Below are positions 13,408-64,000 of a stretch of DNA of 64,000 bases, piece by piece (the stretch's first letter is position 1; every line of letters starts with the position of its first letter). The stretch spans positions 1 through 64,000 of the forward strand of contig JAQGEQ010000295.1 in assembly GCA_034620365.1 (NCBI GenBank). Direction: 5' to 3'. The notes under the pieces were generated by a model. It was not told the DNA's origin, did not search any database, and worked only from the letters and a program-made list of their open reading frames with translations. Both the position numbers and the translations under genes were made by a program. The DNA is from Pegea sp. RAD2-039. Taxonomy: Eukaryota > Chordata > Thaliacea > Salpida > Salpidae.

Positions 13408-13500
13408 CAATTTATTAAAGTCAAAACTAAGTACCTTTAAATTGCAAAGTCCTCAATTATAAAAAAAATGTAATATTTAAGTAATATAAATTATGCATCA

Positions 13501-20969: not shown

Positions 20970-23900
20970 ATCATGCTTGACTAAATTCATAGTGAATAAA
21001 TAGGAGTTTTTACGTAGAGTAACATTATGGATTTTAACGCTGATAAATTCTGGTTGAACTGTAACATACATTAAAAGAATTTGTATTCAAACTTCAGTAA
21101 GAACCTGAATTTGATTAAACAAAATTTAAAAAAATTTTCAATTTAATCGCAAGTTAATTTGTTTGTACTTCTACGGCAATTATCATTTTATAATTTATTT
21201 TTCCCGCAGCAATTATTGATTTTGATGTGTTGAAGGTTATATAGGTTTCATAACGAATTTGAATATTCATTATTGTTCAATATTGTAAACTCTTACCAAC
21301 GAAACACTGAAAAGGCAAATTTACAACATTTTTTTAAATTTTGACATAAAAATCAGATTAATAGAAATTAAATGTTAATTTATATTTTTTCACAAAGTAT
21401 AATGTCAAAACTAAAGTAGGAATCTAGTTTTTATTTCAAAGAAAATTTCTTATATACTATTGTTAGCTTTTTATAATAGACAACATAATGTATGGCTTCC
21501 AACGAAAACCAATATCGAATCGATTTAGGAAAACGTTATGCAAAAAGGAAATTAGAAATGATTAGATATTCTTATTCAACATTCGTTAAAAGTATAGTAT
21601 GTACTACAACATTAATTAAATTAGGATATTTATAATTGTGTTACATTAACCCTTGATTATTTTAGGGCCTGCTTTAAATTTGATGAGTATAAGCAAACGT
21701 TATATATAAAGCCTACTTACACCAAATAATTGGCTAGAGAGGAATGAATAACCTTAACCTACCGTGTACGGCATTAAATATTTTTCCAACCATGATACAA
21801 ATAAAAGAAATAGTATTAGAAAGAATTAGAACAGTGATAAAAACTCAAAAACGACTCAAACGTTGCATAATATTAGTTTAACAATTAAAAGATATTTTGC
21901 TAACCGACAAAATATTATTGAACTTAAATAAAGTTAGATAATAATTATATAATTATTATCATTATTCAAATAAAACATTATTAATTTGATCGCTAATTTT
22001 GATTGAATTTGCCATATAAGTAATTATTTCTGTTTATTCCTTAACAAAAACATTCATAGAATTAGAAAGTTATAATTAAATCAAAATGAATTAGTTAAAA
22101 CGCCACTTTCGTGTTGTTTTGGTTTAATTTATAAACCAATAAAACTAAGCTAAGATAATTATTTTGTTTAACTAAGTTTGATTATTGTTTTATTGCTTTG
22201 TTTATTTAAATTAATATTTTTCAAGAGTTGTAACAAATACTAACTATATAAATGTTTTAAATAAAGGTAACTTTACTAATTTAAGCTAAAATATATATAA
22301 TTTAAAACTAGGAGTTATTTACTTAAGTTAAATTTTAACAAACTAATTTCTTAGCTAAAGAAGACATGAATTAGGAATCAAAATTATTTTTATTATATAA
22401 CTAACAATAATTAGATAGGTACTAACAATTGTTTGTTATGTGTTATCTCTATCACTTTAGTATATATAATTAAAAAATAAAACTGAAATTAATAAATTTA
22501 ATTGTAAAATATTCTTATCAAAAAATATTAATTTTACAAAATACTCTTTCTAAGTGACAAAAGTTTATATATATAATTAACAAATAAACTCTATAAAATA
22601 TATTTGAGAATTATATTGTTGTGTTTATGTTATTTTAAGTAAATAGATATATCTTTGATTGAAAATATGAGTTTTATTTAAACTTGAAAAATATATTTAA
22701 TAATATTTTATTTTCTGTAGTTATAACTTTTATTTAAAATATTACTTTTTTCTATTATACTTTAACTAACTTTTCCTAACATTCTTTAAAAGAAGAGGCT
22801 AAATTAGCTATATAATTAAAATGTTTTCCTTTTTGTGAGTATATATAACAATTTTGTAGCAATAAACTTTGTTTGTTAAAATAAATTTTAAAAAATAATA
22901 TAATAAAATCTCTTTAGAATAGATAATAGAATTTCTATGACTAGTTTCGTTATGCTAAGGTCTTTTTAAATGTTATAAGACCACCTTGTAAAAACATCTG
23001 AAATTTTACACACTTAAAAACTATTTCATTAAATTATACTTTTTATTTTAACTTTTTGATTGTGTTTAAATATCTCTTATAATAGTTTTCTTACTTTTTA
23101 TATTTTAAAATATATACATTTACATAAAAAGTACAAAAATATAATTTTGATTAAACTTTTTAACTATTTAAAAGCTGTACAAATTTTCAAACCATTGAAG
23201 GAAAACTCTTTTGATAATAACAAAACAATAATCATAAGTGATTTTCAGGAAGTTCTTTTAGACTGATTAATTCAGGGTTGTTTAATAGGGATTATTTAAG
23301 ATAATTGTTCTTCTTTTTGTTACAGCTTAGACCCAATGGAAGACAGAAGTTTTGAATCTTAAACTCAACAAACTGAAGCAAAAACTTCATTTGTTCCTAT
23401 TTTGGTTAAAATTGTTGAGTACAAAATTTCCTGCCTGGAAGAACAATTGTCCATTAAATAAGAACAGAAATTATAAATATTAATTTGTTACCTATGCAGC
23501 AGGATTTCACTTTAAACTGGTAAATGGATATTTTTTTGGTAATTTTAGTTTTAAGTATAAAAATTGTGATTGAACTAAGGTTATTCTATTAAAAAATGTT
23601 GTGGTAAATGCTGATTGTTTAACTAAAAATGGAGTTTTGTAATCATAAGTTTGTATATCAATAAAATTATACATAAATTATATTTATACTCCAAAAAAGA
23701 TATAAAATGATCATAACCAGTTATAACTTCATAGGCAAATTATAATTTTTATTCTTAGCAAATATATGAATTCAATAACAAAAAATTTTTGTAGTTTGTT
23801 GAAACAAGACACCTCTGTTATTGAATCGTTCTATCTACTTCAAAACAGAAGAAGGAACTTAAACTTCAGCTGAAGTATATAGAGGAAGCAACCTAAATTC

Positions 23901-25350
23901 TAACTGATGTAGAATGATCTAGAATGCTTTTGGGATTTGATTTATATAAAATTTGATGATTAAGGTAATATTGATCTAACATGATAACAAATCTAAACAT
24001 GTAAAAGATAATCTTTTAAATGTTGGAAATCATGATGAAGAAGCTGATCTTAGCTGATTAAGAGTAGAGAATACAGATCCTGTAAGCTGTCTTTAAAGAT
24101 TTCAGGTTGCATTTCTTACAATTGCACATATTTCTTTTATATTTAAAAGTTTTTGTTTTGTATGAAGTAAATTAAAATTGTTTATAAAAGAAATGACTTG
24201 TTTGTTATAGCGGTATTGTCATTTACTAAAAATAGTTTTTTATCTTTCATCCTTATTAGATAACTTCATTAACCTGAAAAACAGCAATTAAAAAATTTGT
24301 TAAGGGCACTGCGGTGATGTCAGAATATAGTGCAAATACTCAAACATTAGAAAGAAATATATACAAAAAAAAATTGAAAAAATCGAGAAAAGTGGTTTAG
24401 GGAATGCAAATTTAAACAAGGTCTTGTTATGATGACTACAAGAACCATTTAAAATTATAAACCTGATGTTAACAGCAAGAGAATTCCAGTCTCTACATCA
24501 ACAAGATAAGTATTGGGAATGAAAGACTGGTGTATTGCACATATGCTCACCTGGCCTTGCAGTAGCTGCTAAAATGACACTGAGTAGTGACCAGGTGCTT
24601 ACAAGGTTGAAACGCCAGCTTTATATTTAGAGTCATTTACCTTACAAATTTTTGTAAACCGAATTTAAGAGCTTAAATAACCTGAGCTCATATCACCGTT
24701 TCATTTTCGAAAAGATGTGTTATTATAGGCTCCAACTCGGGACATTTCCTGAGTTATGTTGGTGTGATAGCAGCTACATAAAAGATGGTGTGAGAAAATA
24801 AAAATGATAGGTTATCTTAATAACAACGACAACAATTATATTTGAAAGATTTTAATTTTACGACCGATTGTCATAAAATTAAAAAGAGTTATTAGATTTT
24901 TAATTGACCAGAACAAAGATTTCATTTGTAAACTCTCTATAATTGCTTGAACACATCAAGACAATATAACTTAAACCTCCACTTAATATTAAGTTTAAGT
25001 TAAAACCACGACACAAATAGTGCTTAAACTAAAAAACCTTAAAGTGTTGTAAGCTAAGAAATAGTGAAAGTATGAAAATGAAAAGATATTTATTAGTTTT
25101 ATTAAAATAATTATCAGCTAATATTTCTAAGATATAAAATATAATATTAATTTTCTATATTTTGTTTTAGTTATAAAATTGAACAAATAATGATGTAGTT
25201 TTTATCATTTCAGAATTGTTCGTCTAATTTCTCCATTAGACATTATATTTCAGGAATTTTCAACCAGAAGTATACCTCTTAAACATTTAAAACAAATGTC
25301 TGCAATGTGGTTTAATAAAGATTCATTATTCTGGTTTAAATAACCATACC
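20970..25350. repeat. Large tandem array, copy 1 (diverged, partly deleted)
   Basis: First of four direct copies. Anchors: 'aacattat' at 21021, 'cgccactttcgtgttgtttt' at 22101, 'gttacctatgcagcagga' at 23487, 'agggcactgcggtgatgtc' at 24303. It is the most diverged copy: between the last two anchors it is about 590 nt shorter than the others (816 against 1404-1413 nt), and it has about 390 extra nt at 21330-21712. It keeps a roughly 130-nt segment (about 25040-25175) that copies 2 and 3 lack but copy 4 has. Confidence 0.85.
21492..21635 (+). CDS. Small ORF in copy-1-specific insert (47 aa), unrecognised
   Basis: ATG to TAA, starting MASNENQYRIDLGKRYAKRK, basic in the middle. It lies wholly inside the roughly 390-nt segment that copies 2-4 lack. 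Start and composition look less random than other short frames here. It may be a first exon, a scrap of an inserted element, or chance; no splice donor was identified with confidence. Confidence 0.25.
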   Translation: MASNENQYRIDLGKRYAKRKLEMIRYSYSTFVKSIVCTTTLIKLGYL

Positions 25351-28300
25351 AAGTTAATAGTGAATGAATAAGAGTTTTTAAGTAGGCTAACATTATGGAT
25401 TTTAATACTTATAACTTCTGGTTGAATTGTAATAAATTTTAAAACAATTTACATTCAAACTTCAGTAAAAACATGATTTTGATTAAATCAAATTTTGAAA
25501 AGTCTCAATTTATTTGCAAGTTAGGTTTTTTGCGCTTCTACTGATATTTTCATATAATTATTTTTTCCTGTAGAAATTATAGATTTGGATATGATAACGG
25601 TTATATTGATTTGGAACGAATTTGAATAATCATAATTGTTAAAAATTCTACACTCTTACCAACAAAACAATAACCAAGCAAACCTGCCCATTTTTTTACT
25701 TACACCGAATAATTGTTTAGGGACGAAAAACTAACATTAACCTACCGTGTAGGGCATCAGTTATCTTTCCAATCATAATACAAATAAAAGAAATGAGATT
25801 CAAATTTAAATCTACAAAGTTTATTACTTAGCAACTTTGAATCAAAAATATCCACTCAAACTAGCTATAAGTTGTCATTGTAATCTTTTCAGTCAAATTA
25901 TATAAATTAATTCTTTAAAGTCAAATAGTACAATTAATACAGTGATTAAAACTCAAAACAACATAAACTTTGTATAATATTAGTTTAACAATAAGAAGAT
26001 TTTGGGTTAACCGAAACAAAACGTTACTGAGCTTAAATGAAATTAAATTAATATTTTTAAACAACAAAAATCAATTCTCACTCATTTCAAATCATTTTGA
26101 TGTACAAGTTAAAATTATTTTTTGTTCCTGGAAAAAACAAACTTAGAATTAAAAAGTTATAATAAAACCTAAATAAATTACGTAAAACGCCATTTTCGTG
26201 TTGTTTTGGTTTTTCAAAAACCACCTAAACTAAGTTAAGATAATTATTTTAAATATATAAACCTGACTACAGTATTATTGCTTCTTCATCTAAATTAATA
26301 TTTTTCAAGGATTGTAATAAATATTTTCTACAAAAATGTGTTCATTAACAGTAACCTTCCTAATTTAAGTGAAAACATGTATAATTTAAAACTAGGAGTT
26401 GTTTACTTAAGTTAAATATTTACAAACCCAACAAATTTCTTAGCTGAAGTAGTCATTAATTATTTTTAGCAACCAAAACTATTTTTATTATACAACTAAC
26501 ATTAAATAGATAGGTACTAACAATTGTTTGCTATGTGTTATCTCTATTACTTTATTATGCATAATTAATAATTAGCTATAACTAGAAAATATAAGTGAAA
26601 TTAATAAATTAATTTATTTTATCTAAATAATTCGATCCTGCTTGGTGGCGAAGCTTGGTACTACACCTAGGTACAAGGTACATCTAGCTAGGAAGTACCA
26701 GGTTCGACCCCAGGTGGAGACATAAAAAACTCCTGAGAAAAACCATAAAAAACTCTTGAGAATGTGTGTTAGTGAGATGTTCTCTCTTTAGGCCCTTTCC
26801 TTCGCATTTATATATATATAAAACATAAAAAAATTTTTAGAAAATACTCTTTCAAAGTGACAACAGTTTAATACTTAATTAATACCTAAAAATAGATTAT
26901 ATATATTTTAGAATCATAATGTGGTGTTTAAGTTTTTTTTAAAGACTAGAAATATATTTGATTGAAAATATGAGTTTTATTTAAACATGAAAAATATATT
27001 TAATAGTTTTTTTTTATTTGTAGTTATAATTTTTATTTAAAATAATACTTTTTTCTATAATACTTTGAATAACTTTTCATAACATTCTTTTGAAAAGGAG
27101 GATCAATAAGTTATATAATTAAAATGGTATAATTTTTGTGAGTATATATAACAATTTTGTAGCAATAAATTTTGTTTGTTAAAATAAATTTAACAAAAAC
27201 AAATTAGTAAAATTTCCATAGAAGGATTTACAAGGAATTTATATGACTACTCGTGTTATGCTGAGATCTTTTTATATGTTATATAATCACTTTGTAAAAA
27301 CATCTAAAGTTTACATACTTTTAAAGTATTCCATAATTATGTTTTTTATTTTAGATTTTTGATTGTCTTTGTTTAAATATCTTTTATGATAGCTTTCTTT
27401 ATTTTTATATTTTAACATATATACATTTACATGAAAAGTACAAAATTATAAATTCAATTAACCTTTTTAATTATTTAAAAGCTATACATATTTTCAAAAT
27501 ATTAGAGGAAAACTTCTTTTTGATAATGACAGAACAATAATCATGAGTGATTTTCATGAAGTTTTTTAGATTGATTATTTAGGTTTGTTTATTTAGGATT
27601 ACTTATGACACTGTTCTTATTTTTGTTACAGCTTAGATTCAAAGCAAGAAAGAAATTTTGAAGATTAAACTCATAAAACTTAACCAAAAACATGATTTGT
27701 TCCCATTATTGTTAAGTTGTGGACTACAAAATTTCACTGCCTTGAAGAACATATTTGCTGTAAATAAGAACAGAAATCATAAATTTTAATTTGTTACCTA
27801 TGCAGCAGGATTCCACATCAAACTGGTAAATGGATAGTTTTTTGTAATTTTATTTTTAAGTATAAAAATTGTGATTGTACTAAGGCTATTCTACTAAAAA
27901 ATGTTGTGGTAAATGCTGATTGTTTAACTAAAGTTTGAGTTTTGTAATCATAAGTTTGTATATCAATAAAATTATACATAAATTATATTTATAGCCCAAT
28001 ACACATATAAAATGCTCATAACCAGTTTTAATTTCATAGGCCAATTATTATTTTTATTCTTAGCAAATATATGACTTCAATAACAAAACAATTTTGTAGT
28101 TTGTTAAAACAAGACACCTCTGTTATTGAATCGTTCTATCTACTTCAAAACAGAAGAAGGAACTAAAACTTCAGCTGAAGTATAATGTTCTAGAAGGTTT
28201 ATGGGATTTGATTTATATAAAATTTGATGATTAAGGTAATATTGATCTGACATAAACTCATATTTGATTATAAAACTACTGTAAGTTTAGGCGTTGTAAA

Positions 28301-30145
28301 AGCCTGAAACATCTTGGCATAATTATAATATAGAAAGTGATGTTGTACAGTTTGGAGTTAACATAAGGTCTTCGGTCTATAGTTGTTTTTAATATTGTTT
28401 CTGTAAGTCTTTTAATTCTTACTGATTGTTTATAAGAGATTTGCATTTCTTTTTAAATTTGATTGAAGCTTTACATACTATGTCTAATGTGTAGTTAGTA
28501 TTTATAATAATTGTAAATTTCATTAGCAGTGGTTCCAAGCTAGAAACTTCTAATATATTTCAAATTGAATGGCAAACAATTGAAGAAAGATGAAGAGAAG
28601 ATATCATTTTTTATATACTGTAGTTGTAACATCTTTGTTATCATTGTGTCTGATGTAATCAAAAAGTAAGGGGCTCAAAATTGGGACAACAGGTAGGAGT
28701 GGATTTTGATGATCTTTTTAAATCAAGAAGTTTAACATTTTTTACAGATAATTCGTAAAAGATAATCGTTTAAAGTTAGAAATCATGATGAAGAAATTGA
28801 TCCTAGCTGATGAAGAATCGAAAATTCAGATTCTGTGGGCTGTGTTTAAGTTTAATATAATTTGAACTTTTTATTTTCCTCTATAATATGTTGTGTTTTC
28901 CACAGCTTTATTTTAAATGAATTACATAAAATACTGATGGTTTCATAGAATAGATAACAATTCAATTCATATTTCTTTTAATATTTTAATGATTTAATTT
29001 TGTATTTCTTACAATTACACATATTTCTTTTATATTTAAAAGCTTTTGTATTATTTAAAGTACATTAAAATTGTTTATAAAAGAAATGACTTGCTTGATA
29101 TAGCGGTATTCTCATTTACTAAAAAGAGTTTTTTATCTTTCGTCCTTATTTAATAACTTCATTATCATCAAAAACCAGCAATTATAAAAATTGTTAAGGG
29201 CACTGCGATGAGGTCAGAATATAGTGCAAAAATACAAACAATGTAAAGAAATATATACAAGTGAATGATAAAAACGAGAGCAGTGGTTTAAGGAATCAAA
29301 ATTTGAAATGTAGTCTCGTTATGATGACTAAAAGAACATTTTTATGATATCTGGAGATCAAGTTAAAAGCAGCAAGATTTGAGTCTCTATATCAACAAGA
29401 TAAGTAATAGCAAAGGATGAATAATGAATTGCACATATGCTCACTTCGTCTTGCAGTAGCTGCTAGAAAGACACTGAGTATAATGACCAGCTGATTAAAA
29501 AGTATAAACGCGGGCTTTAAATTTCGAGTCATTTATCTTACAAATTGTCATTAACCAAATTAAAGAGCTTATATAACCGGAGTTTGTATTACCGTTTCAT
29601 TTTTGCAAAGATGTGTTCTTATAGGCTCGAACCCGAGATATTTCGTGAGTTATGTTGCTGTGATAGCAGATACACAATGGATGGAGATAAGATCAGTATA
29701 AGAAAATAAAATTGAAATGTTACTTTGTTATAAAAACAAAGATATAAATTGCATTTGCAAGATTTGAATTTTACACCAATTGTCATAAGATTAGAATGAG
29801 TTTTTAGCTTTTTTCTTATCGACTAGAACAAAGATTTCATTTGTAAACTCTCGTTAATTTCTTGAATATATCAAGACAACATAACTTAAACCTCTACTTA
29901 ATATTAAGTTTAAGTTAAAACCACGACACAAGTAGTGCATAAACTAAAAAAACTTTTTTGTCTTAGTAATAAAATTGAACAAATTATGGTTTAGGTTAAA
30001 TCATTTCAGAATTACTGTCTGATTTATTCTTGCGACATTAAATTTTAGGAGTTGTAAACTAGAATTTTACCTTTTAAACATTTAAAAGAAATGTGTGTAA
30101 TGTGGTTTAATAAAGATTAATTATTCTGGTTTAAATAACCATACA
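25351..30145. repeat. Large tandem array, copy 2 (with SINE insertion)
   Basis: Anchors as for copy 1 at 25389, 26188, 27793 and 29197. The distance to copy 3 is 4792 nt across the SINE but 4593-4602 nt elsewhere. Lacks the roughly 130-nt segment near its right end (junction about 29955). No long open frame. Exon-like scraps (an acceptor-like 'tttgttacag' before a frame with scattered TAA/TGA) recur in every copy but are interrupted in all of them. Confidence 0.88.
26633..26825 (+). mobile_element. tRNA-derived SINE
   Basis: About 183 nt are present here and absent at the same place in copy 3 (about 31420), which is the empty site. Box A is TGGCGAAGCTTGG at 26646-26658, an exact fit to the Pol III A-box consensus. 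Box B is GGTTCGACCCC at 26701-26711, one base off consensus. Downstream is a near-tandem pair of about 22 nt (acataaaaaactcctgag, then ccataaaaaactcttgag), then a TA-repeat tail at about 26810-26821. Target-site duplication is ambiguous because the flanks are A/T runs. The head does not fold into a clean tRNA, as expected for a SINE. Confidence 0.85.
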
Positions 30146-33100
30146 AAGTTCATAGTGAATAAAAAGGAGTTTTTAAGTAGGCTAACATTATAGAATTTAT
30201 TTCTAATAATTTTTGGTTCAATTGTCATAAACGTTAAAACAATTTACATTCAAACTTCAGTAAAAACATGATTTTGATTAAATCAAATTTTGAAAATTGT
30301 CAATTTGTTTGCAAGCTGAGTTATTTGTGTTTCTACTGCTATTTTCATATAATTATTTTTCTCATGTGGCGATTATTGATTTTGATATTATAGAGGTTAT
30401 ATTGATTTGGAACGAATTTGAATAATTATAATTGTTAAAATTTCTACACTCTTTCCTATAAAACTATGACCAGGCAAACCTACCCATTTTTTTACTTACT
30501 CCGAATATTTGTTAAGAGACGAAAAATTAACCTTAACTTACCGTGTAGGGCATCAGTTATTTTTCCAAGCACAATACAAATAAAAGAAATGATATTCAAG
30601 TTGAAATCTACAAAGTTTATTACTTAGCAACTTTGAATCAAAATTATCCACTCAAACTAGCTATAAGGTGACATTGTAATTTTTTCAGTCAAATTATATA
30701 AATTAATATTTTGAAATCAAATAATACAATTAATACAGTGATTAAAACTCAAAAACGACTTAAACGTTGAATAATATTAGTTTAACAATAAGAAGATTTC
30801 GGGTTAACCGAAACAAAACGTTACTGAGCTTAAATGAAATTAATATTTTTAAACAACAAAAATCAATTCTCACTCATTTTGAATCACTTTGCCTTTCAAG
30901 TTATAATTACTTTTTGTTCCTAGAAAAAACAAGCTTAGAATTAGAATGTTATAATAAAACCTAAATAAATTACGTAAAACGCCATTTTCGTGTTGTTTTG
31001 GTTTTCAAAAACCACCTAAACTAAGTTAAGATAATTATTTTAAATATATAAATCTGACTACAGTATTATTGCTTTTTTATCTAAATTAATATTTTTCAAG
31101 GATTGTAATAAATATTTTCTACTAAAATGTGTTCATTAACAGTAACCTTCCTAATTTAAGTGAAAACATATCTAATTTAAAACTAGGAGTTGTTTACATA
31201 AGTTAAATATTTACAAACCCAACAAATTTCTTAGCTGAAGTAGTCATGAATTATTTTTAGCAAGCAAAACTATTTTTATTATACAACTAACATTAAATAG
31301 ATAGGTACTAACAATTGTTTGTTATGTGTTATCTCTATTACTTTATTATGCATAATTAATATTTAGTTATAACTAGAAAATAAAAGTAGAATTAATAAAT
31401 TTATTTATTTGAATTAAATAATTTTAGAAAATACTCTTTCAAAGTGAAAACAGTTTAATACTTAATTAATACTTACAAATAGATTTTATTATATATATTT
31501 TGGAATCATAATGTGGTGTTTAAATTTTTTTTAACTAAATAGAAATATATTTGATAGAAAATATGAGTTTTATTTTAATAAGAAAAATATATTTAATAAT
31601 ATTTTATTTTTTTTAGTTATAATTTTTATTTGAAATAATACTTTTTTCTATTATACTTTGAATAACTTTTCATAACATTCTTTTGAAAAGGAGGATCAAT
31701 AATTTATATAATTAAAATGGTCTAATTTTTGTGAGTATGGATAACAATTTTGTAGCAATAAATTTTGTTTATTAAAATAAATTTGACAAAACCAAATTAT
31801 TAAAATTTCCTTAAAAGGATTTAAAAGGAGTTTATGTGACTACTCTTGTTATGCTGGTATCTTTTTATATGTTATATAATCACTTTGTAAAAACATTTAA
31901 AGTTTACATACTTTTAAAGTATTTCATTAATATGTTTTTTATTTTAGATTGTTGATTGTCTTTGTTTAAATATCTTTTATAATAGCTTTCTTACTTTTTA
32001 TATTTTAACATATATACATTTACATAAAAAGTACAAAATTATAATTTTATTTATACTATTTAATTATTTAAGAGCTGTGCAAATTTTCAAAATATTACAG
32101 GAAAACTTCTTTTTGATAATGACAGAACAATAATCATGAGTGATTTTCATGAAGTTTTTTAGATTGATTATTTAGGTTTGTTTAATTAGGATTACTTATG
32201 ACACTGTTCTTATTTTTGTTACAGCTTAGATTCAAAGTAAGACAGAAGTTTTGAAGATTAAACTCATAAAACTTAACCAAAAACATTATTTGTTCCCATT
32301 ATTGTAAAGTTGTGGACTACAAAATTTCACTGCTTTGAAGAAAATATTTGCTGTAAATAAGAACAGAAATCATAAATATTAATTTGTTACCTATGCAGCA
32401 GGATTCCACATCAAACTGGTAAATGGATAGTTTTTTGTAATTTTATTTTTAAGTATAAAAATTGTGATTGTACTAAGGTTATTCTATTAAAAAAAGTTGT
32501 GGTAAATGCTGATTGTTTAACTAAAGTTTGAGTTTTGTAATCATAAGTTTGTGTATCAATAAAATTATACATAATTTATATTTATAGCCTAATACACATA
32601 TAAAATGGTCATAATCAGTTTTAATTTCACAGGCCAATTATCTTTTATGTTTTTAACAATTATAGTACTTCAATAACAAATATATTTCTGCAGTTTGTTA
32701 AAACAAGACACCTTAGTAATAAAATCTTTCTATCTACTTCAAAACAGAAGAAGGAACTTAAACTTCAGCTGAAGTAGAATGTTCTAGAAGGTTTATGGGA
32801 TTTGATTTATATAAAATTTGACGATTAAGGTAATATTGATCTAACATAAACACATATTTGATTGTAAAACTACTGTAAGTTTAGGCAATGTAAAAGCCTG
32901 AAACATCTTGGCATAATTATAATATAGTAAGTGATGTTATACTGTTTGGAGTTAACATAAGGTCTTCCGTCTATATTTGTTTTTTGTTTTTAATTTTGTT
33001 ATTGTAAGTCTTTTAATTATTACTGATTGTTTATAAGAGATTTGCATTTCTTTTTAAATTTGATTGAAGCTTTACATTCTATGTCTAATGTGTAGTTAGT

Positions 33101-34750
33101 ATTTATAATAATTGTAAATTTCATTAGCAGTGCTTCCAAGCTAGAAACTTCTAATATATTTCAAATTGAATAGCAAACAATTGAAGAAAGATGAAGAGAA
33201 GATATCATTTTTTATATACTGTAGTTGTAACATCTTTGTTATCATTGTGTCTGATGTAATCAAAAAGTAAAGGGCTCAAAATTGGGACGACAGGTAGGAG
33301 TGGATCTTGATGATCATTTTAAATCAAGAAGTTTAGCATTTTTTACAGATAATTCACACAAAATAATTATTTTAAGGTTAGAAATCATGATGAAGAAATT
33401 GATCCTAGCTGATGAAGAATAGAAAATTCAGATTCTGTGGGCTGTCTTTAAGTTTGATATAATTTGAACTTTTTATTATCCTCTATAATATATTGGGTTT
33501 TCCACAGCTTTATCGTAGATAAATTACATAAGATACTGAAGGTTTCATAGAATAGATAACAATTCAATTAATATTTCTTTTAAGTTTTTAATGATTTAAT
33601 TTTGTATTTCTTACAATTGCACATATTTCTTTTATATTTAAAAGCTTTTGTTTAATTTTAAGTACATTAAAATTGTTTATAAAAGAAATGACTTGTTTGA
33701 TATAGCGGTATTCTCATTTAGTAAAAAGAGTTTTTTATCTTTCATCCTTATTTAATAACTTCATTATCATCAAAAACCAGCAATTATAAAAATTGTTAAG
33801 GGCACTGCGATGAGGTCAGAATATAGTGCAAAAATACAAACAATGTAAAGAAATATATACAAGTGAATGATAAAAACGAGAGCAGTGGTTTAAGGAATCA
33901 AAATTTGAAGTGTAGTCTCGTTATGATGACTAAAAGAACAATTTTATGATATCTTGAGATCAAGTTAAAAGCAGCAAGATCTTAGTCTCTATTTCAACAA
34001 GATAAGTAATAGCAAAGGATGAATAATGTATTGCACATTTGCTCACTTCGTCTTGCAGTAGCTGCTAGAAAGACACTGAGTATAGTGACCACCTGCATAA
34101 AAAGTTTCAACGCTGGCTTTAAATTTCGAGTAATTTATATTACAAATTGTCATTAACCAAAATAAAGAGCTTTTATAACGGGGATTCGTATTACCGTTTC
34201 ATTTTTGCAAAGATGCGTTCTTATAGGCTCGAACCCAGAACATTTCGTGAGTTATGTTGCTGTGATAGCAGATACACAATAGATGGTGATAAGATCAGTA
34301 TAAGAAAATAAAATTGAAATGTTACTTTGTTATAAAAACAAAGATATAAATTGCATTTGCAAGATTTATACTTTACGACCAATTGTCATAAAATTAAACA
34401 GAGTTATTGGTTTTTTTTATCGACCAGAACAAAGATTTCATTTGTAAACTCTCGTTAATTGCTTGAATATATCAAGACAACATAACTTAAACCTTTACTT
34501 AATATTAAGTTTAAGTTAAAACCACGAAACAAGTAGTGCATAAACTAAAAAAACTTTTTTGTTTTAGTAATAAAATTGAACAAATAATGGTTTAGGTTAA
34601 ATCATTTCAGAATTACTGTCTGATTTCTCCTTGCGACATTAAATTTCAGGAGTTGTAAGCTAGAATTTTACCTCTTAAACATTGAAAAGAAATGTGTGTA
34701 ATGTGGTTTTAATAAAGATTAATTATTCTGGTTTAAATAACCATACCAAG
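30146..34750. repeat. Large tandem array, copy 3
   Basis: Anchors at 30184, 30980, 32386 and 33799; spacing to copy 4 is 4602-4614 nt at every anchor. Copies 3 and 4 are the most regular neighbours. Shares with copy 2 the loss of the roughly 130-nt right-end segment (junction about 34555). Confidence 0.9.
34195..34285 (-). ncRNA. tRNA/SINE-like relic inside the 4.6 kb unit
   Basis: On the minus strand a conserved stretch reads ..ACATAACTCACGAAATG.. then GGGTTCGAGCCTATAAG, containing a good box B. The same block is in all copies (about 24725-24790, 29620-29680, 38835-38900), with the box B damaged in copy 1. A box A is not clear. Probably an old tRNA-derived SINE fixed in the unit before it was amplified. 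Confidence 0.3.
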
Positions 34751-37700
34751 TTAATAGTGAATGAAATAGAGTTTTTAAGTAGGCTAACATTATAGATTTT
34801 AATACTGATAATTTCTGGTTAAATTGTCATAAACGTTAAAACAATTTACATTCAAACTTCAGTAAAAACATGATTTTGATTAAATCAAATTTTGAAGAGT
34901 TTAAATTTGTTTGCAAGTTGAGTTATTTGTGTTTCTACTGTTATTTTCATAAAATTATTTTTCTCATGCAGCGATAATTTATTTTGATATTATAAAGGTT
35001 ATATTGATTTGGAACGATTTCGAATAATCATAATTGTTAAAATTTCTACACTCTTACCAATAAAACAATGACCAGGAAAACGTATCCATTTTTTTACTTA
35101 CACCGAATATTTGTATAGAGACAAAAAATTAACCTTAACTTACCGTGTAGGGCATCAGTTAATTTTCCAACCATAATACAAATAAAAGAAATGACATTCA
35201 AATTTAAATCTACAAAGCTAAGTAGTTAGCAAATTTGAATAAAAAATATCCACTCAAAATAGCTATAAGATGTCATTGTAATTTTTTCAGTCAAATCATA
35301 TAAATAAATTTTTTGTAGTCAAATAATACAATTAATACAGTGATTAAAACTCAAAAACGACTTAAACTTTGCATAATATTAGTTTAACAATACGAAGATT
35401 TCGGGTTAACCGAAACAAAACGTTACTAAGCTTAAATGAAATTAAATTAATATTTTTAAACAACAAAAATCAACTCTCACTCATTTTAAATCACTTTGCC
35501 ATACAAGTTATAATTACTTTTTGTTCCTAGAAAAAAAACAAACTTAGAATTAGAAAGTTATAATAAAACCTAAATAAATTACGTAAAACGCCATTTTCGT
35601 GTTGTTTTGGTTTTTTAAAAACCACCTAAACTAAGTTAAGATAATTATTTTAAATATATAAATCTGACTACAGTATTATTGCTTCTTTATCTAAATTAAT
35701 ATTTTTCAAGGGTTGTGATAAATATTATTTACAAAAATGTGTTCATTAACAGTAACCTTCACTATCTAAGTGAAAACATGTATAATTTAAAACTAGGAGT
35801 TGTTTACATAAGTTAAATATTTACAAACCCAACAAATTTCTTAGCTGAAGTAGTCATTAATTATTTTTAGCAAGCAAGACTATTTTTATTATAAAACTAA
35901 CATTAAATAGATAGGTACTAACAATTGTTTGTTATGTGTTATCTCTATTACTTAATTAGGCATAATTAATAATTAGTTATAACTAGAAAATAAAAGTGAA
36001 ATTAATAAATTTATTTATTTGATTTAAATAATTTTAGAAAATAATCTTTCAAAGTAACAACAGTTTAATATTTAATTAATACTTACAAATAGATTTTATT
36101 ATATATAATTTAGAATTATATTGTGCTTTTTATGTTATTTTAGGTAAATAGAAATATATTTCATTGAAAATATGAGTTTTATTTAAATAAGAAAAATATG
36201 TTTAATAACATTTTATTATTTGTAGTTATAATTTTTATTTGAAATATTACTTTTAGCTATTAAAGTTTGAATAACTTTTCATAACATTCTTTTGAAAAGG
36301 AGGATCAATAAGTTATATAATTAAAATGGTCTAATTTTTTAGAGTATATATAACAATTTTGTAGCAATAAATTTTGTTTGTTAAAAATAATTTGACAAAA
36401 ACAAAATAATAAAATTTCTTTAGAAGGATTTACAAGGAGTTTATATGACTATTTTTCTTATGCTGAAAACTTTTTATATGTTATATTATCACTTTGTAAA
36501 AACATCTAAAGTTTACATACTTTTAAAGTATTTCATTAATATGTTTTTTATTTTAGATTGTTGATTGTCTTTGTTTAAATATCTTTTATAATAGCTTTCT
36601 TACTTTTTATATTTTAACATATATACATTTACATAAAAAGTACAAAATTATAATTTTGATTTACCTTTTTAATTATTTAAAAGCTATACAAATTTTCAAA
36701 ATATTAGAGGAAAACTTCCTTTTGATAATGACAAAACAATAATCATGAGTGATTTTCATGAAGTTTTTTAGATTGATTAATTTAGGTTTGTTTAATTAGG
36801 ATTACTTATGACACTGTTCTTATTTTTGTTACAGCTTAGATTCAAAGTAAGACAGAAGTTTTGAAGCTTAAACTCTTAAAAAAACATAACCAAAAACATG
36901 ATTTGTTCCCATTATTGTAAAGCTGTGGACTCTAAAATTTCCATGCCATTGAAGATCATATTTGCTGTAAATAAGAACAGAAATCATAAATATTAATTTG
37001 TTACCTATGCAGCAGGATTCCACATTAAACTGGTAAATGGATAGTTTTTTGTAATTTTATTTTTAAGTATAAAAATTGTGATTGAACTAAGGCTATTCTA
37101 TTAAAAAATGTTGTGGTAAATGCTGATTGTTTAACTAAAATTTGAGTAGTGTAAATGTAAGTTTGTATATCAATAAAATTATACATAAATTATATTTATA
37201 GCCCAATAAACATATAAAATTTTCATAACCAGTTTTAATTTCATAGGCTAAATATCTTTTATGTTTTTAGCAATTATATGACTTCAATAACAAAAACATA
37301 TTTGCAGTTTGTTAAAACCAGACACCTTTGTAACAGAATCTTTCTATCTACTTCAAAACAGAAGAAGGAACATCAACTTTAGCTGAAGTAGAAAGTTCTA
37401 GAAGTTTATGGGGTTTGATTTAGATAAAATTTGATGTTTAAGGTAATATTGATCTGACATAAACACATATTTGATTGTAAAACTACTGTAAGTTTAGGCA
37501 TTGTAAAAGCCTGAAACATCTTGGCATAATTATAATATAGAAAGTGATGTTGTACAGTTTGGAGTTAACATAAGGTCTTCCGTCTATATTTGTTTTTTGT
37601 TTTTAATTTTGTTTCTGTAAGTCTTTTATTTCTTACTGATTGTTTATAAGAGATTTGCATTTCTTTTTAAATTTGATTGAACTTTAGATACTATGTCTAA

Positions 37701-39395
37701 TGTGTAGTTAGTATTTTTAATAATTGTAAATTTCATTAGCAGTGGTTCCAAGCTAGAAACTTCTAATATATTTCAAATTGAATAGCAAACAATTGAAGAA
37801 AGATGAAGAGAAGATATCATTTTTTATATACTGTAGTTGTAACATCTTTGTTATCATTGTGTCTGATGTAATCAAAAAGTAAGGGGCTCAAAATTGGGAC
37901 AACAGGTAGGAGTGGATTTTGATGATCATTTTAAATCAAGAAGTTTAACATTTCTTACAGATAATTCGTAAAATATAATCGTTTAAAGTTAGAAATCATG
38001 ATGAAGAAATTGTTCCTAGCTGATGAAGAATAGAAAATTCAAATCCTGTGGGCTGTGTTTAAGTTTAATATAATTTGAACTTTTTATTTTCCTCTATAAT
38101 ATGTTGTGTTTTCCACAGCTTTATTTTAAATGAATTACATAAAATACTGATGGTTTCATAGAATAGATAACAATTCAATTAATATTTCTTTTAAGTTTTT
38201 AATGATTTAATTTTGTATTTCTTACAATTACACATATTTCTTTTATATTTAAAAGCTTTTGTATTATTTAAAGTACATTAAAATTGTTTATAAAAGAAAT
38301 GACTTGCTTGATATAGCGGTATTCTCATTTACTAAAAAGAGTTTTTTATCTTTCATCCTTATTTAATAACTTCATTATCATCAAAAACCAGCAATTATAA
38401 AAATTGTTAAGGGCACTGCGATGAGGTCAGAATATAGTGCAAAAATACAAACAATGTAAAGAAATATATACAAGTGAATGATAAAAACGAGAGCAGTGGT
38501 TTAAGGAATCAAAATTTGAAATATAGTCTCGTTATGATGACTAACAGAACATTTTTATGATATCTGGAGATCAAGTTAAAAGCAGCAAGATTTGAGTCTC
38601 CATATCAACAAGATAAGTTTTAGGAAAAGATGAATAATGTATTGCACATATGCTCACTTCGTCTTGCAGTAGCTGCTAGAAAGACACTGAGTATAATGAC
38701 CAGCTGAATAAAAAGTTTAAACGCGGGCTGTAAATTTCGAGTCATTTATCTTACAAATTGTCATTAACCAAATTAAAGAGCTTTTATAACGGGGATTCGT
38801 ATTACCGTTTCATTTTTGCAAAGATGTTTTCCTATAGGCTCGAACCCAGAACATTTCGTGACTTATGTTGGTTTGATAGCAGCTACACAAAAGATGGAGA
38901 TAAGATCAGTGTAAGAAAATAAAATTGAAATGTTACTTTGTTATAATAACTAAGATGAAAATTGCATTTGCAAGATTTAAACTTTACGACCAATTGTCAT
39001 AAAATTAGACAGAGTTATATGTTTGTTTTTTCAACTAGACACAAGGTTTCATTTGTAAACTCTCTATAATTGCTTGAGCTCATCAAGACAATATAACTTA
39101 AAACTTTACTTAATATTAATTTTAAGTTAAAACTACGACACCAATAGTGCTTAAACTAACAAAACATTAAGATTTGTGAGCTAAGTAATAGTGAAATTAT
39201 GAAATTGAAAATATGTTTTTTAGTTTTATCAAAATGATTTTCATTAAAGTTTTCAGTATTTTAAAATGTAGTATTAATCTTCTATTTTTTGTTTTGTTCT
39301 GGTGAAATAATTAAACGAATAATAATTTAGTTTTATCATTTCGGATTAATCATTTGTTATCTCTGTTCAACATTAAATTTCAGGATGTTTAAACA
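34751..39395. repeat. Large tandem array, copy 4
   Basis: Anchors at 34786, 35589, 37000 and 38410. It retains the roughly 130-nt segment (about 39165-39295) shared only with copy 1. Homology with the end of copy 1 ceases at about 39390-39400, which marks the right edge of the array. Confidence 0.88.
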
Positions 39396-39971: not shown

Positions 39972-42100
39972 TTATGTTTCAGACTCAATAGTTACATTTC
40001 GATAGTGAATCCTCATTTCAGTTGTGCGCCCAGACGGGTTATAAACACCTTTTTAATTTTTTTTAATGAGTAGTTTTAATGGTTTAATTTAACATACCGA
40101 ATTTAAAATAAGGTATTCTTCCATCATCATTTCTTCCACACGGCCCTGTCCAATCAATAACTTTTTCATCATTTATGAATAAACTAATCGTAGCATTTTT
40201 GTACAAGCTTCCTTCATCTGTAGTGAGAAACAATTTTACAATGACATTTTCAATTTTTTTTACTTATTTAGTTTTTCTATTGAGACTGCTTTTATAAGTT
40301 AAAACAAATATCTTACATCTTGAAGTTGTTTGGTTGAACGTATTTTTATATTCACTCCATTTAATTTTCCAAGAAAATCTGTTGAAATTTGTTTCCAAGA
40401 AACTAGCATTTCTTTGGAAAAGCAAGTGAGCCTAGAAAAAACATCTTAATATAACAATAAATTCTTATAATATTTTTGCTAAACTTGGTTAATTTTTCAA
40501 ACAATGTTTAGAATTTCAATTTAAAGTTCTGTTAAAAGTCATTGAAAGTCATTTCTGATCTAAATGTAATTATCATTATAATAATATTCTAAAAAAATTA
40601 ATAATAGATAACAATAAAATATTTCAAGAAAAGTAATACTTAATCAATAGTCCTAAAATTGTTTAGTAGGGAATAACTTTACAAGTATTCATCATGAAAC
40701 CAGGCAGTAGTAAGAAACTGTTTTTTATACTGTGTTTTTAAATCTAAAATACCCTTTTACCTTGTAAAAGCTTGCTTACCTGTTGGTGAGGATAATCTTT
40801 ACACTGCTTTTCACCACTTACAAAGCAGCCTCCTCTTGGTATAAAAATTCGGTCATCGGATCGTGCTACTACTTTTATAAAACCATGATCTAATTTAAGA
40901 GCTAAGGGAGGATAGCCTCCTTTTTGATAAGATAGTTTACTGCTGATATTGAAGTATCGATGAGCATTTCTCTGTATCTTTCCTACAAATACGAAACCGT
41001 GATTTAGAATAAAGTAATGGTGTAAACAGCAAAACAAATTAAACCTTGTTTGCATTGAAAATCTGTGCAAACTGAAAAAAGATCTTTTGTTGTAACTCTA
41101 GCAACAATTCCATCTTTAGATTTCAAAATTCTGGGATCTGGTGATCCATGCCACTGAGCTATAACATATCTTGCTGTAGAATTGACTCCTTTGCTAATTT
41201 TCATGTCAAAAGAATAAGTATAAACGTTTTCTATAGGTTGGTTTGCTCCAGCACAACAACCTTTTAATAATGATTCCATGATAGTACCTAAAATTATATT
41301 TTTCTTATAAAACTCAACTATGTAAAATCTATTTTACCGAGACTTTTTTTCGTAGTTTTGTTGTATATAGAAGACTCTGAAATATTTTTTAGAGTCTTAA
41401 AATTCTGAGGTCTAGTGTAACAACTGGAGAGTTCTAATCTTGATTTCTTCCCTTTAACTTCAGGTCGATAGTTAAAACTAAAAAAGAACATTTAATAGAA
41501 TTACAAGTATTACGACAAATTAGCATTATAGCTGAAAATTAATATAAACTAAATACAACAGAAACTAGTATGAAAGTACCTTTAAAGTTTAAGATGAAAG
41601 ATATTAGTCAAACTAAATAATCAAGGTTTCCATTAGTTACAAATTATAGGACCGATTGAAATCTTTTTTTTACGCTATTTACTAAACCTATCATCAAACT
41701 AACGTTATTTCGTTCCAGTCTTCAGCATTGTCCAATTCGTAATAGGTCATTGATTTGTTGATATTTGCTTCCATTTCTAACCATTTTCCAACAAATGTTT
41801 CATCTACGTGTTATAATAATAAAGTTGTTTTTGTTTGTTTAATAATAAATATTCTATCATTGTTTTGTTTAAATTGAGTACATATCACAACTAATGGCCT
41901 AATTTATTTTTGCTTACTTCTTTGTGTAAGAAATCCTGTTGGAATTTCACCTATACCATCAAAAATCCTTTTTGTATGTGGCAAAGTAGTATTGGTCAGC
42001 AGGAAGTCTAAAATATAAATATTTTATGTAAACTTTAGTATTAAAGAAAATTACACTTACAATTGATGCGCATTATTGCCATTAAAGTAATAAATTCCAT
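39972..42100 (-). CDS. Heparin lyase I-like (PL13 family) polysaccharide lyase, 375 aa, 9 exons
   Basis: Exons in order: 42061-42100, 41918-42007, 41704-41803, 41338-41477, 41045-41287, 40780-40982, 40317-40431, 40098-40217, 39972-40048. Every junction keeps frame and the exons sum to 376 codons. In-frame TGA upstream of the ATG. Family landmarks appear in order: SRLEL (R90), YSFDMKIS, AQWHG (H170), FSWKIKWSEY, DWTGPCGRNDDGRIPYFKFG, then GVY (Y353). In bacterial heparin lyase I an Arg, a His in QxHG and a Tyr near the C-terminus act in beta-elimination; all three positions look kept. Length is close to the bacterial enzymes (about 380 aa). The N-terminus is mildly hydrophobic; ten N-x-S/T sequons and eight Cys suit a secreted protein. 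Substrate (heparin/heparan sulfate or another uronate polymer) is inferred. Two donors are non-GTA/GTG (GTTTAA, GTTAGT). Bacterial or fungal contamination is excluded by the introns. Confidence 0.87.
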
Positions 42101-52062: not shown

Positions 52063-54147
52063 GTAAGAAAACGTTTTAATTTCAATTCAGGTTCAAACAT
52101 TTAAGTGCCTTAAAAATTGTGCCTAAAATTCTTACAAGCGCTGCTTCTTTTGAAAATCAGTTCTTTCATTTATTTAATAAACTTTTCAGACTTTTTAAAT
52201 ATACAAAAATACATATTGTTAAATAAGTTATTTGTCGAGCAAAATGTAATAGTGACTTGAATATAAGATTATAGTAAAATAATAAGCTTTAAAAATGATT
52301 TTTAAATAAAAGTTGACTAAAAGCATGCGAAGTGATTAAAGTTATTGAATTCGAAATGCAAAACGTTTTTTCGTTGGTAATCAACGATGTCTTTATGAAT
52401 TAGGATGCATTAAGGCTGTCAATATATTTCTAATATAAAATTTGAAAATCAACTGCTAACACTTTTATATTAGTATTGATTATCGCTATTAGTAAAAATA
52501 TATAAAATAATTTTTGGAAATTAAAGTTACAAGTAGCTTTTGTTAAAATGGTTTAAGGCCATCAAATATTATTGTAAAACATATATTTATATCTATATTT
52601 TTTTTACCTCACAGTGCGAGAAAACTACCCCAACAAAAATAATGGATTTGAACTTTTACTTTGTTAACCATCTTTAAGTTTCTACATAATAAGGATAGTA
52701 AAGATAGAATAATAGTATAATGCTATTAATTTTTTATAATATGGATATGTATTTTATGCCTATAAGTGAAATAGAACAGTATCATTATAGTAAATTAAAT
52801 AGGTTTAAATTTAGTTGAATAGAGGTTAGAAAAGTAGACAAAAATAAAATTGTTAGAACAAGACTAAAATAATCTCATTATGTTGTTGAATTTTCATTGA
52901 AGTACTCAAATGTAAACGTATGTTTTATTTAGCTTAAAATGATGTAAAAATATTTACAAAATTAAGCTATAAAAAGTTTATAATGTTTACAAAAATAGTT
53001 TTCATCATTAAAAAAAGTTAGCAAATCAAAAATTATAACAATATTTATTACATTATTATTTATTAGACATTACTTCTAATACAAGCATATAAATAACTTT
53101 TCTCGCCATTTTCAACGCTATTAAAAAATAGTTCTTACCTAGGTCAAGTCTAACCTACGGCATGAACGTTTCAAAAATGATATACCTTCTGATAACTTTG
53201 TCGATGCCTTATTGATTACTTTTGGCTGTTTTTATACAGTTACCATCATTTTTTTATACTTTTTTATATTTTTTCATTTATTTTGTACATGTTATAAACG
53301 TTTTTTTGTTTTATTAAATATTAAAAAGTTAATATAAGTAAATAATTATTTTTGATAAGACTTCATAAACTAATTAGAATTAATGATTTATAAGGTAAAT
53401 AGTTAAAAATTTTTCAAATTATTTAGCTCTTCTAAATGCTTTAATGATTGGCCTTTATTGTACATTTAGAGCTTTCAAAAGGTAATATCAAATTTTTGAG
53501 ATTAATATAAAAAGTGATATAGAAATTAATTTAAATTAAATATTGGTCATTAGTGTTGCCATTTGGTAGTTAATATAACTTTGATTTTTAATACCGTGTT
53601 TTTTCAAAAAAAAAATACGGTCTTTTAATGAAGCTGATTTGTTAAAAATCTGTAATTAATATATTTATTTTAAACATATTTTTTTTCCATAAGGCCAATG
53701 ATAAATTTATACTTGTTTCTGTAATTTTAATGTCTGTGTGTCAGTAACATCAAAAAATTACTCATATAAATTAAAATCTTGTGTTTTTTATATTTTATAT
53801 TATAAATAAATTATAAAAATAGGTTTATCATTAAAAATATGTAATGAAAAAATTAAAGCTGTTTATTTTAATGTAGAATCAGAGAAATTTTTACCAATAT
53901 TATTTTCCAAAGCAAAATCCAGTGTGGAAAAATTAATTTGAGTTTAAAGTTGCTATCTTTAGAGCAAACTAAATTAAATATTTTTTTAGCGTTCATTGTT
54001 ATAATTAAAAAGTTTTTTTTACAATTTTATTAATGATTAATATACCTCAATATAAAATATTTAAGAAGGTTGTTATGCTGAAATTAATCTTGTTCATCTT
54101 AGCTTTATTTTTATAATAGATAACTATTCTCTATTTTCTTATCTTAG
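52063..54147. other. Presumed 5' UTR intron, AT-rich
   Basis: No coding frame or RNA gene. Bounded by the donor and acceptor described for the CYLD-like gene. Confidence 0.35.
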
Positions 54148-54160
54148 GTATAAAAACATC

Positions 54161-57100
54161 ATGAATAAATTAATTCGTAAGAAACTTATGACAATGGCAA
54201 GTCAAGTCAGCTTTGAGAGTCTTTTAAGCTTCCACATAGTTTTGGAATCTTCACTCTGTATTATGACGTGCGTTGTCAAGAAGATACCAAAAGGTCAGTT
54301 TTGTCATAAGCTACTTATTCATATCTTATATGCCTTAAAATTAATATAATTATTTACATTACTACAGGAGCCATAATAGAAGAAGTAATCGGGAATCAAG
54401 ATCAGTTGGTTTACATCATTATCAATGATGAAACCAAACCAGACTTGGTTTCCTATGTCCCTTTAAAACTTGAAAAGATTGAAGAGGTATTTCTATTTTT
54501 TGGTTGGAAATGAATTTTAAATAGAGGCTTATACATTTTTATGATTTATATACTATTTTAGTTCGGTTTAATAATTCTTTTCATATACAAATAATATTCC
54601 GTTTTCTCATTTGTTTACATAAATCTTTGTAATCTAACTATTGTGCATATGATAGCCAAATGATAATCATAATAATTTTCTTCAAGATTATATAATTAAA
54701 ACATAAGTTGTACATAGTTGAATATTGCAAAATAATATACAACAAATATTTTGATAGTATATAAAACATTGTATTTAAAATGCTTTAACAATGCTAAGTA
54801 GTCAAAGTTATATTTCATTTCTTAAGGATATTGCAAAGCTTTTGGTTGCTATTCCAGAAGAGCAACTTAGATTACAAATGTTCAAAGAACAAGATCATTT
54901 AGAAGAAGCAAAAAAATGCCAAATTGGAGATGTAGTTCAGATAAGACGATCAGATAATATTTATGAAGGTAACTTTCAAATTTATTAACAGACTAAGGTC
55001 ACTAGACTTATGAATCTTTAGGAGTTGTACGATACAAAGGGGAAATTAGTAAAAAATTTGGTACTTACTTTGGAATAGAACTATTTTGTTCAGTTGTTGG
55101 AAGTTCAGACGGTGTAGATTGCAATTGCAGGTAATTGAACTTTAGTTTGATGTAAAATACAAATATGTTATTGTAATTTGCAGACTGTTCACTTGTGAAA
55201 TGGGATCTGGAATATTTGCCAGTATGGACAATATAATATTTGATAGAAATATAAGTAAGACATGTTATGATGCCATATTTACAATATGCCAATTCTCTTA
55301 ATATATCAGTTTGCTGGATAAAATATTTATGTTTTTATCATTTGTGACATCAATTTCTAAAATATTATAAAAATATTCCATTTGCAGATCTTGATCCATA
55401 CGGCAAGATTTCAAAGGAAGGAGGGATTCGGAATTATATCTGTGCTGGATATGAAATTGCTATAAAGTTTAAAGGCAAAGAAAAAGAAGAACAGGGAACA
55501 GTTATGTTTGTTGGTAAGTAAACAGAAGCTTAGGGGTTTTACAAAGTAGTTGAAGAAAAATTGCCGTAAGAACGTTTTTTTTTTAATTCAGGTCGTTTAC
55601 CGGGAAATCCACCATCAACTGCGCTTTATGTCGGCATCAACTTAAAACATGCTGCTGGCTGTGGAACAGGTGTTTACCGCGGAGTTCAGTTGTTTGATGC
55701 CCCATTAAATCATGCAAAGATAGTTCGCTTATCTACTCCGATGATTAGTAATTATCAACAAATGTTAACCAAAAGTGAAGTTTCTCCAAACCAGCCATCA
55801 GCCAGTTCTTCCTCAAACAGCACAAGAAATTTCGAAATTCTCACAAATCCACACAACAGATATGCCAATTCTAATCAAACTATCCACTATTCACTGGTAA
55901 ATTAATGTTTAACATTTAGAATAGATTTATGTAAGATAATTATATTATTTAACAAATAATTTTCTTTGAATTTCGTTTCAAACTAGTTTAATGAAAATTG
56001 GTTGTTTTACTTATAGGATAGTTTGCCCTTAGGCTTTCTGAAGCTTAGCATGGATATACCACCTCTAAAAGGTAATACAATTTAACAGAAAGTTTCATAT
56101 TTACCAATAGCAATACCGAGCAAAATTTGCACCATCAAAATTCCTCCTATAAGAGTTGATAATATTGAAGAATAGATTTATTTTTAAAGTAAACTGTATA
56201 ACTGATTTAAATAAGATAAGAATAGATTTTATGGAAAATAGTTTAATATTAAATATTATACAATTTAAATAAACAACTGACTCAAAAAAAATGAAATGCT
56301 TTTTTTGCTTTCTAACACTTTTATTTTAATAGAAACACAATCAGTTAGAGACTCCGTGACAGGATCATTAATTGAAGTTGGAACTTTTATTCAAATAGAT
56401 CCCTATAACATATTTTCAAGGGGACTTAAATTAAACAATTTTTTCCTTGGTATAGTTAGGTGGTTAGGAATAGGACCAGCAAACGAGGTTTGTAGTTATA
56501 ATCTAATTTCTGTACTTTCCGTATTTCTGTAAAAATTTTCATATAAATCTTTAATTTTCACGAATTTTTTTTTAATTTTAAGTACTTGCAGTTTTAATAA
56601 ATCAATTTTACTACTAATACATCAAAAACCTAATGAAACATGTATATTATTCCTTAATCTAACTCTTGTCTCAAGAAATATCTCTTTTATAAAAGTAAAC
56701 AACCATAGAAGTAAACAGTTGCTGATTGTAAACATAACAATATCCTAAAATATATTTGCTAAATGTGTTCCATAAAATTCGTTACATCCTTGCAAACACC
56801 TAAATGATAGTATAATTTATTTATCAGTTGACATAATTTGTCAAACAAAAAGTTTGTTGCTCTTAATATTTAGTTGTAAACTGGAAAACCAAGTTGTTTC
56901 TCTCGTAGATTGTTGAACACAATCAAATAGCTAAGTTATATTCATTAGAATATTTTAAACACTCGACATTTTCGTAGAGTTTTGCTGGAGTGGAAATAAA
57001 TAAGCAAATTCCTGGAATAGGTGACGGCATACATGAAGATGTGAGATATTTCAAAGGAATTTGTAATCGCAGTCTCTTACTTCCTACTTCTACTTGTTAT

Positions 57101-60819: not shown

Positions 60820-61470
60820 CAGAAAGTTTATCGTAAAAGCTGACTTTGATTTTTTCATTTGGATAAAACTTCGAATTTAGCTGCTTGAGGTTGACAGAGA
60901 AAACAACTCTAAAGAAAGCTAGACAAATTCAATTAAATCAAGTTTTAAATTTAGAATGAGCTAGCAGAAAGTTTTGAAATTATATTGAATGTGAAGAACC
61001 TAAAGTGAGCTCATAGTTTTGCCTGAGATATAAAATGTTATAAAATGTTATAAAACATTATAAAATTAATACGTTATTTATTCCGTATCTGAGGATGCCA
61101 AACTTAATCTCTTTTTGCAGACCTTTGTGGTGAAGTTTAGTAAAAGGGAAATACCCATAAAAGTAACTTATTATAAGATAGTTGTTGGCCGGAGTCACAT
61201 TTCATTAGGTGTATAAAAGTGAATGTTTTTTTTAATTGTTAGGATTTTTTTGTTTTAATCTTCTTTATTAAAACTACCATTAATTAATCATCTTATTAAA
61301 ACTTATTTTCAATTTTTATTTACATCTTACAAATTTAAACTCTCAGTAAAAACTTTTGATTAAAAATAAGTTATAATAAAATCAAGAAATAAAAAACTCA
61401 AATAGAACAAATAATTTTGTCATCAGATATTTATTAATATAACTTTAAACATTTTTTTCATAAAAAATTA
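60820..61470. repeat. Duplicated upstream block, copy B (promoter side of CYLD-like copy 2)
   Basis: Partner of 58140-58745. In this copy a frame at about 61083-61210 is open and reads EDAKLNLFLQTFVVKFSKRE, IPIKVTYYKIVVGRSHISL. The region just upstream of CYLD-like copy 1 (before about 54130) does not resemble it. Confidence 0.7.
61029..61067. repeat. Short tandem repeat (ATAAAATGTT-type)
   Basis: Three to four near-copies of a 10-11-mer, absent from the partner block at 58360. A recent slippage expansion. Confidence 0.65.
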
Positions 61471-61508
61471 TATTATAATATTTTCTTATCTTAGGTATAA
61501 AATAAATC

Positions 61509-63837: not shown

Positions 63838-64000
63838 GTTTGTGGTTATAATCTAATTTCTGTACTTTCCGTATTACTGTAAGAAGTTTCACATAAATCT
63901 GCAATTTTCATGAGTTTTTTGAAAATTTTAAGTACTTGCAGCTTTAATAAATCAATTTAATTACTAATACATCAGAAACCTATTAAAGAATGTATTTAAA
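63838..64000 (+). other. Intron 9 of CYLD-like copy 2, to window end
   Basis: Starts with the same GTTTGT-type donor as copy 1 and follows the copy 1 intron to the end of the window. Confidence 0.7.

Follow-up and report, generated by a model that had tools for sequence, protein, structure and literature searches.

The enzymes known to degrade heparan sulphate in animals are hydrolases, heparanase among them; PL13 enzymes, which act by elimination, are known from Bacteroidota. In heparinase I, a His and a Tyr are the proposed acid-base residues. The heparin lyase I proteins of Bacteroides and Pedobacter (CAZy family PL13; PDB 9grw, 3ikw, 3ilr, 3imn and 3ina) are the only clear solved relatives of the gene product described here. 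Two published accounts of the bacterial enzymes underlie our comparison: PMC10097318 lists, for heparinase I of B. xylanisolvens, ten residues that contact heparin in a docked model, and PMC6688311 gives the calcium residues of a Pedobacter enzyme as D/S169, E228, W254, N351 and D352. Another described system is human dermatan sulphate epimerase 1, which PMC8006597 compares with lyases of families PL8, PL12 and PL21. It is likewise an animal, glycosaminoglycan-modifying enzyme structurally akin to bacterial lyases, with His and paired-Tyr chemistry; its fold differs, and we saw no sequence link between it and PL13.

In this report, we describe a gene from the salp Pegea sp. RAD2-039 that lies in a 64,000-nucleotide stretch of contig JAQGEQ010000295.1 (the whole of this analysed stretch is termed the window). 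The gene, hereafter copy 1, is a real one, with an open nine-exon model. Judging from its sequence, we consider it fairly probable that the product is a secreted PL13-type lyase of shifted specificity.

A nine-exon gene and its surroundings

Copy 1 occupies the minus strand from 42100 down to 39972 (Table 1) and encodes 375 residues. All eight introns are of the GT-AG type, the last having a weak acceptor, and their phases are, in order, 1,1,2,1,1,0,1,1. The original prediction of a nine-exon gene bearing heparin lyase I motifs was borne out, as SRLEL, QWHG, GRNDD..YFKFG and GVY are all found in the translated exons. An alternative start of exon 8 at 40262, which yields a 390-residue model, was dropped after comparison with the paralogues described below. 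The start was placed instead at 40217, where each paralogue has an exon of 120 bases and where a better acceptor stands (TTCTCACTACAG). With this correction, the protein has 375 residues in place of 390, and it scores 44.3 bits against Pfam in place of 42.

Table 1. Exons of copy 1 in window coordinates, with the corresponding exons of the paralogues on contigs C58 and C46.
Feature	Coordinates	Strand	Remarks
Exon 1	42061..42100	-	Start codon and hydrophobic N-terminus (MEFITLMAIMRIN); C58 copy also has a 40-base exon, phase 1
Exon 2	41918..42007	-	90 bases; GT-AG; C58 copy also 90
Exon 3	41704..41803	-	100 bases; GT-AG; C58 copy 106, C46 copy 100
Exon 4	41338..41477	-	KSRLELSSC; Arg90 = Arg88 of B. 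xylanisolvens heparinase I; C58 copy 140 bases
Exon 5	41045..41287	-	IAQWHGSPD; presumed catalytic His170 (bacterial His156); calcium-site Asp174; C58 copy 243 bases
Exon 6	40780..40982	-	QKGGYPPL; Gln-Lys vs Glu-Gln in most bacterial rows; C46 copy 203 bases, C58 copy 194
Exon 7	40317..40431	-	115 bases; C58 copy 115, C46 copy 121
Exon 8	40098..40217	-	CGRNDDGRIPYFKFG; Asn/Asp of the calcium site, with Tyr and Lys presumed to be catalytic; length 120 bases in every copy
Exon 9	39972..40048	-	GVYNPSG...ESET, then the stop codon; contains the second conserved Tyr

The window holds several other features. Units of ~4.6 kb, which share 76-93% identity when compared piecewise, form an array over 20980-39394 that stops ~0.6 kb past the 3' end of the lyase gene. 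In the unit at 29956-34556, no stop-to-stop frame exceeds 66 codons. A 2.5-kb stretch is present twice (54105-56645 and 61452-63995, 96% identity), and one frame in its second occurrence matches CAP-Gly weakly, below the cut-off. Two neighbouring frames at 10523-11122 and 12673-13452 (-) have E2F/DP winged-helix domains scoring 64.9 and 64.3 bits; they stem from a local duplication that spans ~1.8 kb (82% identity).

Two paralogues and their introns

The genome searched is an assembly of at least 105.7 Mb in at least 387 contigs, and it carries at least two paralogues of copy 1, both outside the window. Copy 2 (C58:710759-708631) has nine exons and 375 residues and is 49% identical to copy 1; all eight introns of the two genes stand at the identical alignment column and phase. 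The modelled part of copy 3 lies at ~1074700-1076584 of contig C46. Seven of its introns can be compared with those of copy 1: the phase is the same in all seven and the column in four, while the remaining three are shifted by 1, 3 and 10 columns, the 10-column shift falling in a gappy stretch. Further, three exon lengths of copy 3 exactly equal those of copy 1 (100, 203 and 120 bases). Because positions and phases are common to the copies, the introns most likely predate the duplications that produced these genes.

The frames upstream of copy 3 show a hydrophobic start together with cysteine patterns like those of EGF; the best EGF-type model gives E 8.2e-5 for them, and none scores above its cut-off. 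The lyase exons and the EGF-like exons appear to form one larger protein, a joining that we infer from this arrangement. About 9 kb downstream of copy 3 (~1086339-1087418), there are frames that resemble by eye a LINE-type reverse transcriptase.

Copies 1 and 2 have the same residue in 182 of 370 aligned codons, and in 69 of those 182 the codon differs. The estimates of dN and dS are 0.43 and 1.09 by NG86 and 0.40 and 0.78 by LWL85, with dS near saturation. These values point to purifying selection on the two small copies.

A six-frame search of the genome with PF14099 returned nothing at 1e-3 despite the presence of the three genes, because introns split the coding sequence. For this reason, we treat other empty six-frame family searches as weak evidence of absence. 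Among these are searches for COX1, for nematode cuticle collagen and for arthropod cuticle families, all of which gave no match, the two cuticle searches having no positive control. The spliced-leader motif of bdelloids is likewise absent.

Relationship to heparin lyase I

The original prediction had proposed a profile search of the spliced protein. That search placed copy 1 in Pfam PF14099 (Polysacc_lyase) with 44.3 bits and E 2.6e-11, above the curated cut-off of 29.9 bits. The paralogues score 47.3 bits (C58) and 59 bits (C46, with an exon start not yet corrected) against the same cut-off. An NCBIfam search with copy 1 gave no family. When the 390-residue model was compared with the PDB, the hits were five distinct sequences of heparin lyase I, with E values from 1.8e-11 to 1.5e-7, along with one weak unrelated chain at E 0.38; the homology to the lyases spans ~290 residues. 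A profile built from the three copies found those five sequences at 1.4e-19 to 2.6e-15 and nothing else in the PDB up to E 1. Thus, the PL13-type kinship of copy 1 is well supported by sequence comparison. PF14099 is a broader family than heparin lyase I, so membership in it does not fix the substrate.

To place the docked contacts of B. xylanisolvens heparinase I, we set the register by N25 on a sequence from that species (L019); the other nine letters then agree. The equivalents of Arg88, His156, Tyr356, Lys358 and Tyr362 are identical in all three copies and in all 19 bacterial rows of the alignment (selection described below), and the presumed catalytic Arg, His and Tyr are in place as originally predicted. 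These five residues are also the ones that copy 1 keeps among the ten contacts. It changes N25, Q27, K116, R161 and Q228, the alignment being unsure at the first three of these positions; copies 2 and 3 each keep six of the ten. Of the 19 bacterial rows, six have another residue for N25, two for Q27 and one each for K116 and Q228; R161 is invariant. Copies 1 and 2 have an Arg one place after the R161 position.

The calcium site is likewise retained in part, with three of its five ligands kept in copies 1 and 2 and four in copy 3. Copies 1 and 2 have the Asp, the Asn and the second Asp, with Gln for Glu and Ile for Trp; copy 3 has the Glu as well. In the bacterial rows, the Asn and Asp are invariant, and the first position takes Asp, Ser or Glu; one row has Asp for the Glu, and three have another residue for the Trp.

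Copy 1 therefore shares with bacterial heparin lyase I the core Arg, His, Tyr, Lys and Tyr and the calcium-site Asp, Asn and Asp; it differs in being split by introns, at the five contacts listed above and at the calcium-site Glu and Trp. On this comparison, the core of the chemistry is kept, and the hold on heparin, with its sulphates and calcium bridges, appears to have changed. Of the earlier reading of the gene as a heparin lyase, the kinship with PL13 and PF14099 stands; that it cuts heparin is not supported, with five of ten contacts and two of five calcium ligands changed in copy 1.

Copy 1 has 11 N-glycosylation sequons and copy 2 has five; the former number accords with the earlier suggestion, likewise made from sequence, that the protein is N-glycosylated. 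Each of these two copies has eight Cys. Six Cys are invariant across the three copies: two align with Cys in one bacterial row, and four face none. In both copies 1 and 2, the most hydrophobic 11-residue stretch lies at the N-terminus, where it follows a Glu; there is no basic n-region, and the N-terminus of copy 1 contains Arg11, two features that speak against secretion. In the reading that we favor, the copy 1 protein would enter the secretory path and be N-glycosylated and disulphide-bonded.

Origin of the family

A bacterial-led alignment searched against a collection of 84,980 species gave 239 pattern-matching stretches, from which 66 distinct loci were confirmed. By their record titles, 65 are from Bacteroidota and one is from Pseudoalteromonas. 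We read 33 of the 66, three of which (L079, L078 and L075) offered short or broken frames only, and used 19, picked by eye for spread, in the trees and residue counts. In an unrooted tree of these 19 Bacteroidota sequences and the three copies (261 core columns, no outgroup, bootstrap not quite settled), the copies form one side of a branch with 100/100 support, and that branch is several changes per column long. The core identity of the copies to their respective nearest bacterial rows is 25.2, 27.5 and 28.9%; the bacterial rows are 37.9-89.7% identical among themselves. One long branch was retained, that of L077 (Pedobacter jeongneungensis). This sequence is a very diverged heparin lyase I relative, 42% to the search query, with NGDPQ in place of the GGYPP stretch and QIHG in place of QWHG.

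We found no closer bacterial donor in the bacterial, plasmid and viral collections or in the phylum of L077. An animal-led alignment run against bacteria gave 171 candidate stretches and no confirmed relative. The 395 genomes from the phylum of L077 yielded one match, the genome of L077 itself, which was the sole positive control. Viral contigs gave 11 and 20 candidate stretches and no relatives, and the plasmids gave one record, at 25.9%, which is a heparin lyase I from Bacteroides finegoldii.

The eight introns and the company of heparan sulphate enzymes in the same genome (see below) agree with the original description of a eukaryote-type gene. It had also been claimed that a transfer, if one occurred, was old. 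The age fares well, because introns that most likely predate the duplications mean that any transfer should be old; the transfer itself is our inference, and no donor lineage was found. We envisage that an ancestral gene could have been acquired from bacteria long ago, gained introns and then been duplicated, and that one duplicate would later have joined an EGF-like protein. If there was a transfer, it was either old or from an unsampled source.

An alternative for the origin is vertical inheritance: the gene would be an ancient one of animals or eukaryotes that many lineages have lost, and this lineage would not have acquired it from bacteria. Such a history is compatible with a lyase function. 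The distance of the animal clade from the 19 Bacteroidota sequences, the introns that are older than the duplications and the lack of a donor in the searched bacterial collections all speak for it. Against it is the near-confinement of the family to Bacteroidota (65 of 66 loci), a weak argument because the collections searched hold no eukaryotes. We regard vertical inheritance as a serious but minority prospect.

Probable heparan sulphate enzymes in the same genome

The C5-epimerase domain is matched once in the genome (187.5 bits). Contig C1 has four matches, exon by exon, to the heparan sulphate N-deacetylase/sulphotransferase family, which is not known outside animals. Given these two sets of matches, this animal probably makes heparan sulphate. 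Because the genome encodes enzymes for making it, the substrate of the lyase could be the animal's own. A six-frame search of the genome found no Hepar_II_III lyase domain, by the type of search that missed the intron-split PF14099 genes.

Discussion

We propose that copy 1, as a PL13-type protein, would cleave a uronic-acid-containing chain by beta-elimination, its His and Tyr serving in acid-base catalysis in the manner suggested for heparinase I. The changed contacts suggest a preference for a chain that is less sulphated than, or different from, that of bacterial heparin lyase I. Candidate substrates are heparan sulphate made by the animal itself or a polysaccharide taken in as food.

A competing explanation of function is that copy 1 is a catalytically dead or weak descendant of PL13, serving as a lectin-like matrix protein that binds glycosaminoglycans. 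The changes at half of the named contacts and at two calcium ligands in copy 1 would fit such a role, as would the apparent joining of copy 3 to EGF-like exons, an architecture that is usual for matrix proteins. We nevertheless think this unlikely: the Arg, His, Tyr, Lys and Tyr are unchanged in all three copies at 25-29% core identity to the nearest bacterial row, as expected if catalysis has been selected.

Another possibility is an epimerase-like enzyme, in which the lyase core has been reused to invert uronic acids within the chain and no cutting occurs. PMC8006597 proposes, for another fold, that minute active-site changes can convert a lyase to an epimerase, and copy 1 has kept its His and two Tyr. 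We met no PL13-type epimerase in the searches made, and the genome already has a C5-epimerase gene; these facts make the epimerase reading quite improbable. As for bacterial contamination or a chance pattern misread as a gene, we give it negligible weight: contamination is refuted by the introns common to the paralogues (which lie on contigs of 976,595 and 1,435,756 bases), and neither notion accords with eight GT-AG introns, with a G+C content of 28.6% in the gene's 2-kb bin (window range 20.9-32.9%) or with the Pfam and PDB matches.

We return to the reading that we favor, a secreted lyase of shifted specificity, and to a broader and more tentative extension of it. The three genes may represent an endogenous family of PL13-type glycosaminoglycan lyases, one of them within a modular EGF-like protein, that trims the heparan sulphate of the animal's own matrix by elimination. 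We hold this to be possible, with distinctly less assurance than the lyase assignment of copy 1 itself.

Among the literature matches listed, from a search whose scope lay largely outside subscription journals, none described a heparin lyase I from an animal; automatic annotations of such animal proteins may exist. If the enzyme was acquired, it would represent an old acquisition whose age can be bounded through the introns common to the copies. If it is active, it would be a eukaryote-made relative of an enzyme that is applied industrially to heparin. Further, an active enzyme would give animals a second, chemically distinct route for editing extracellular heparan sulphate.
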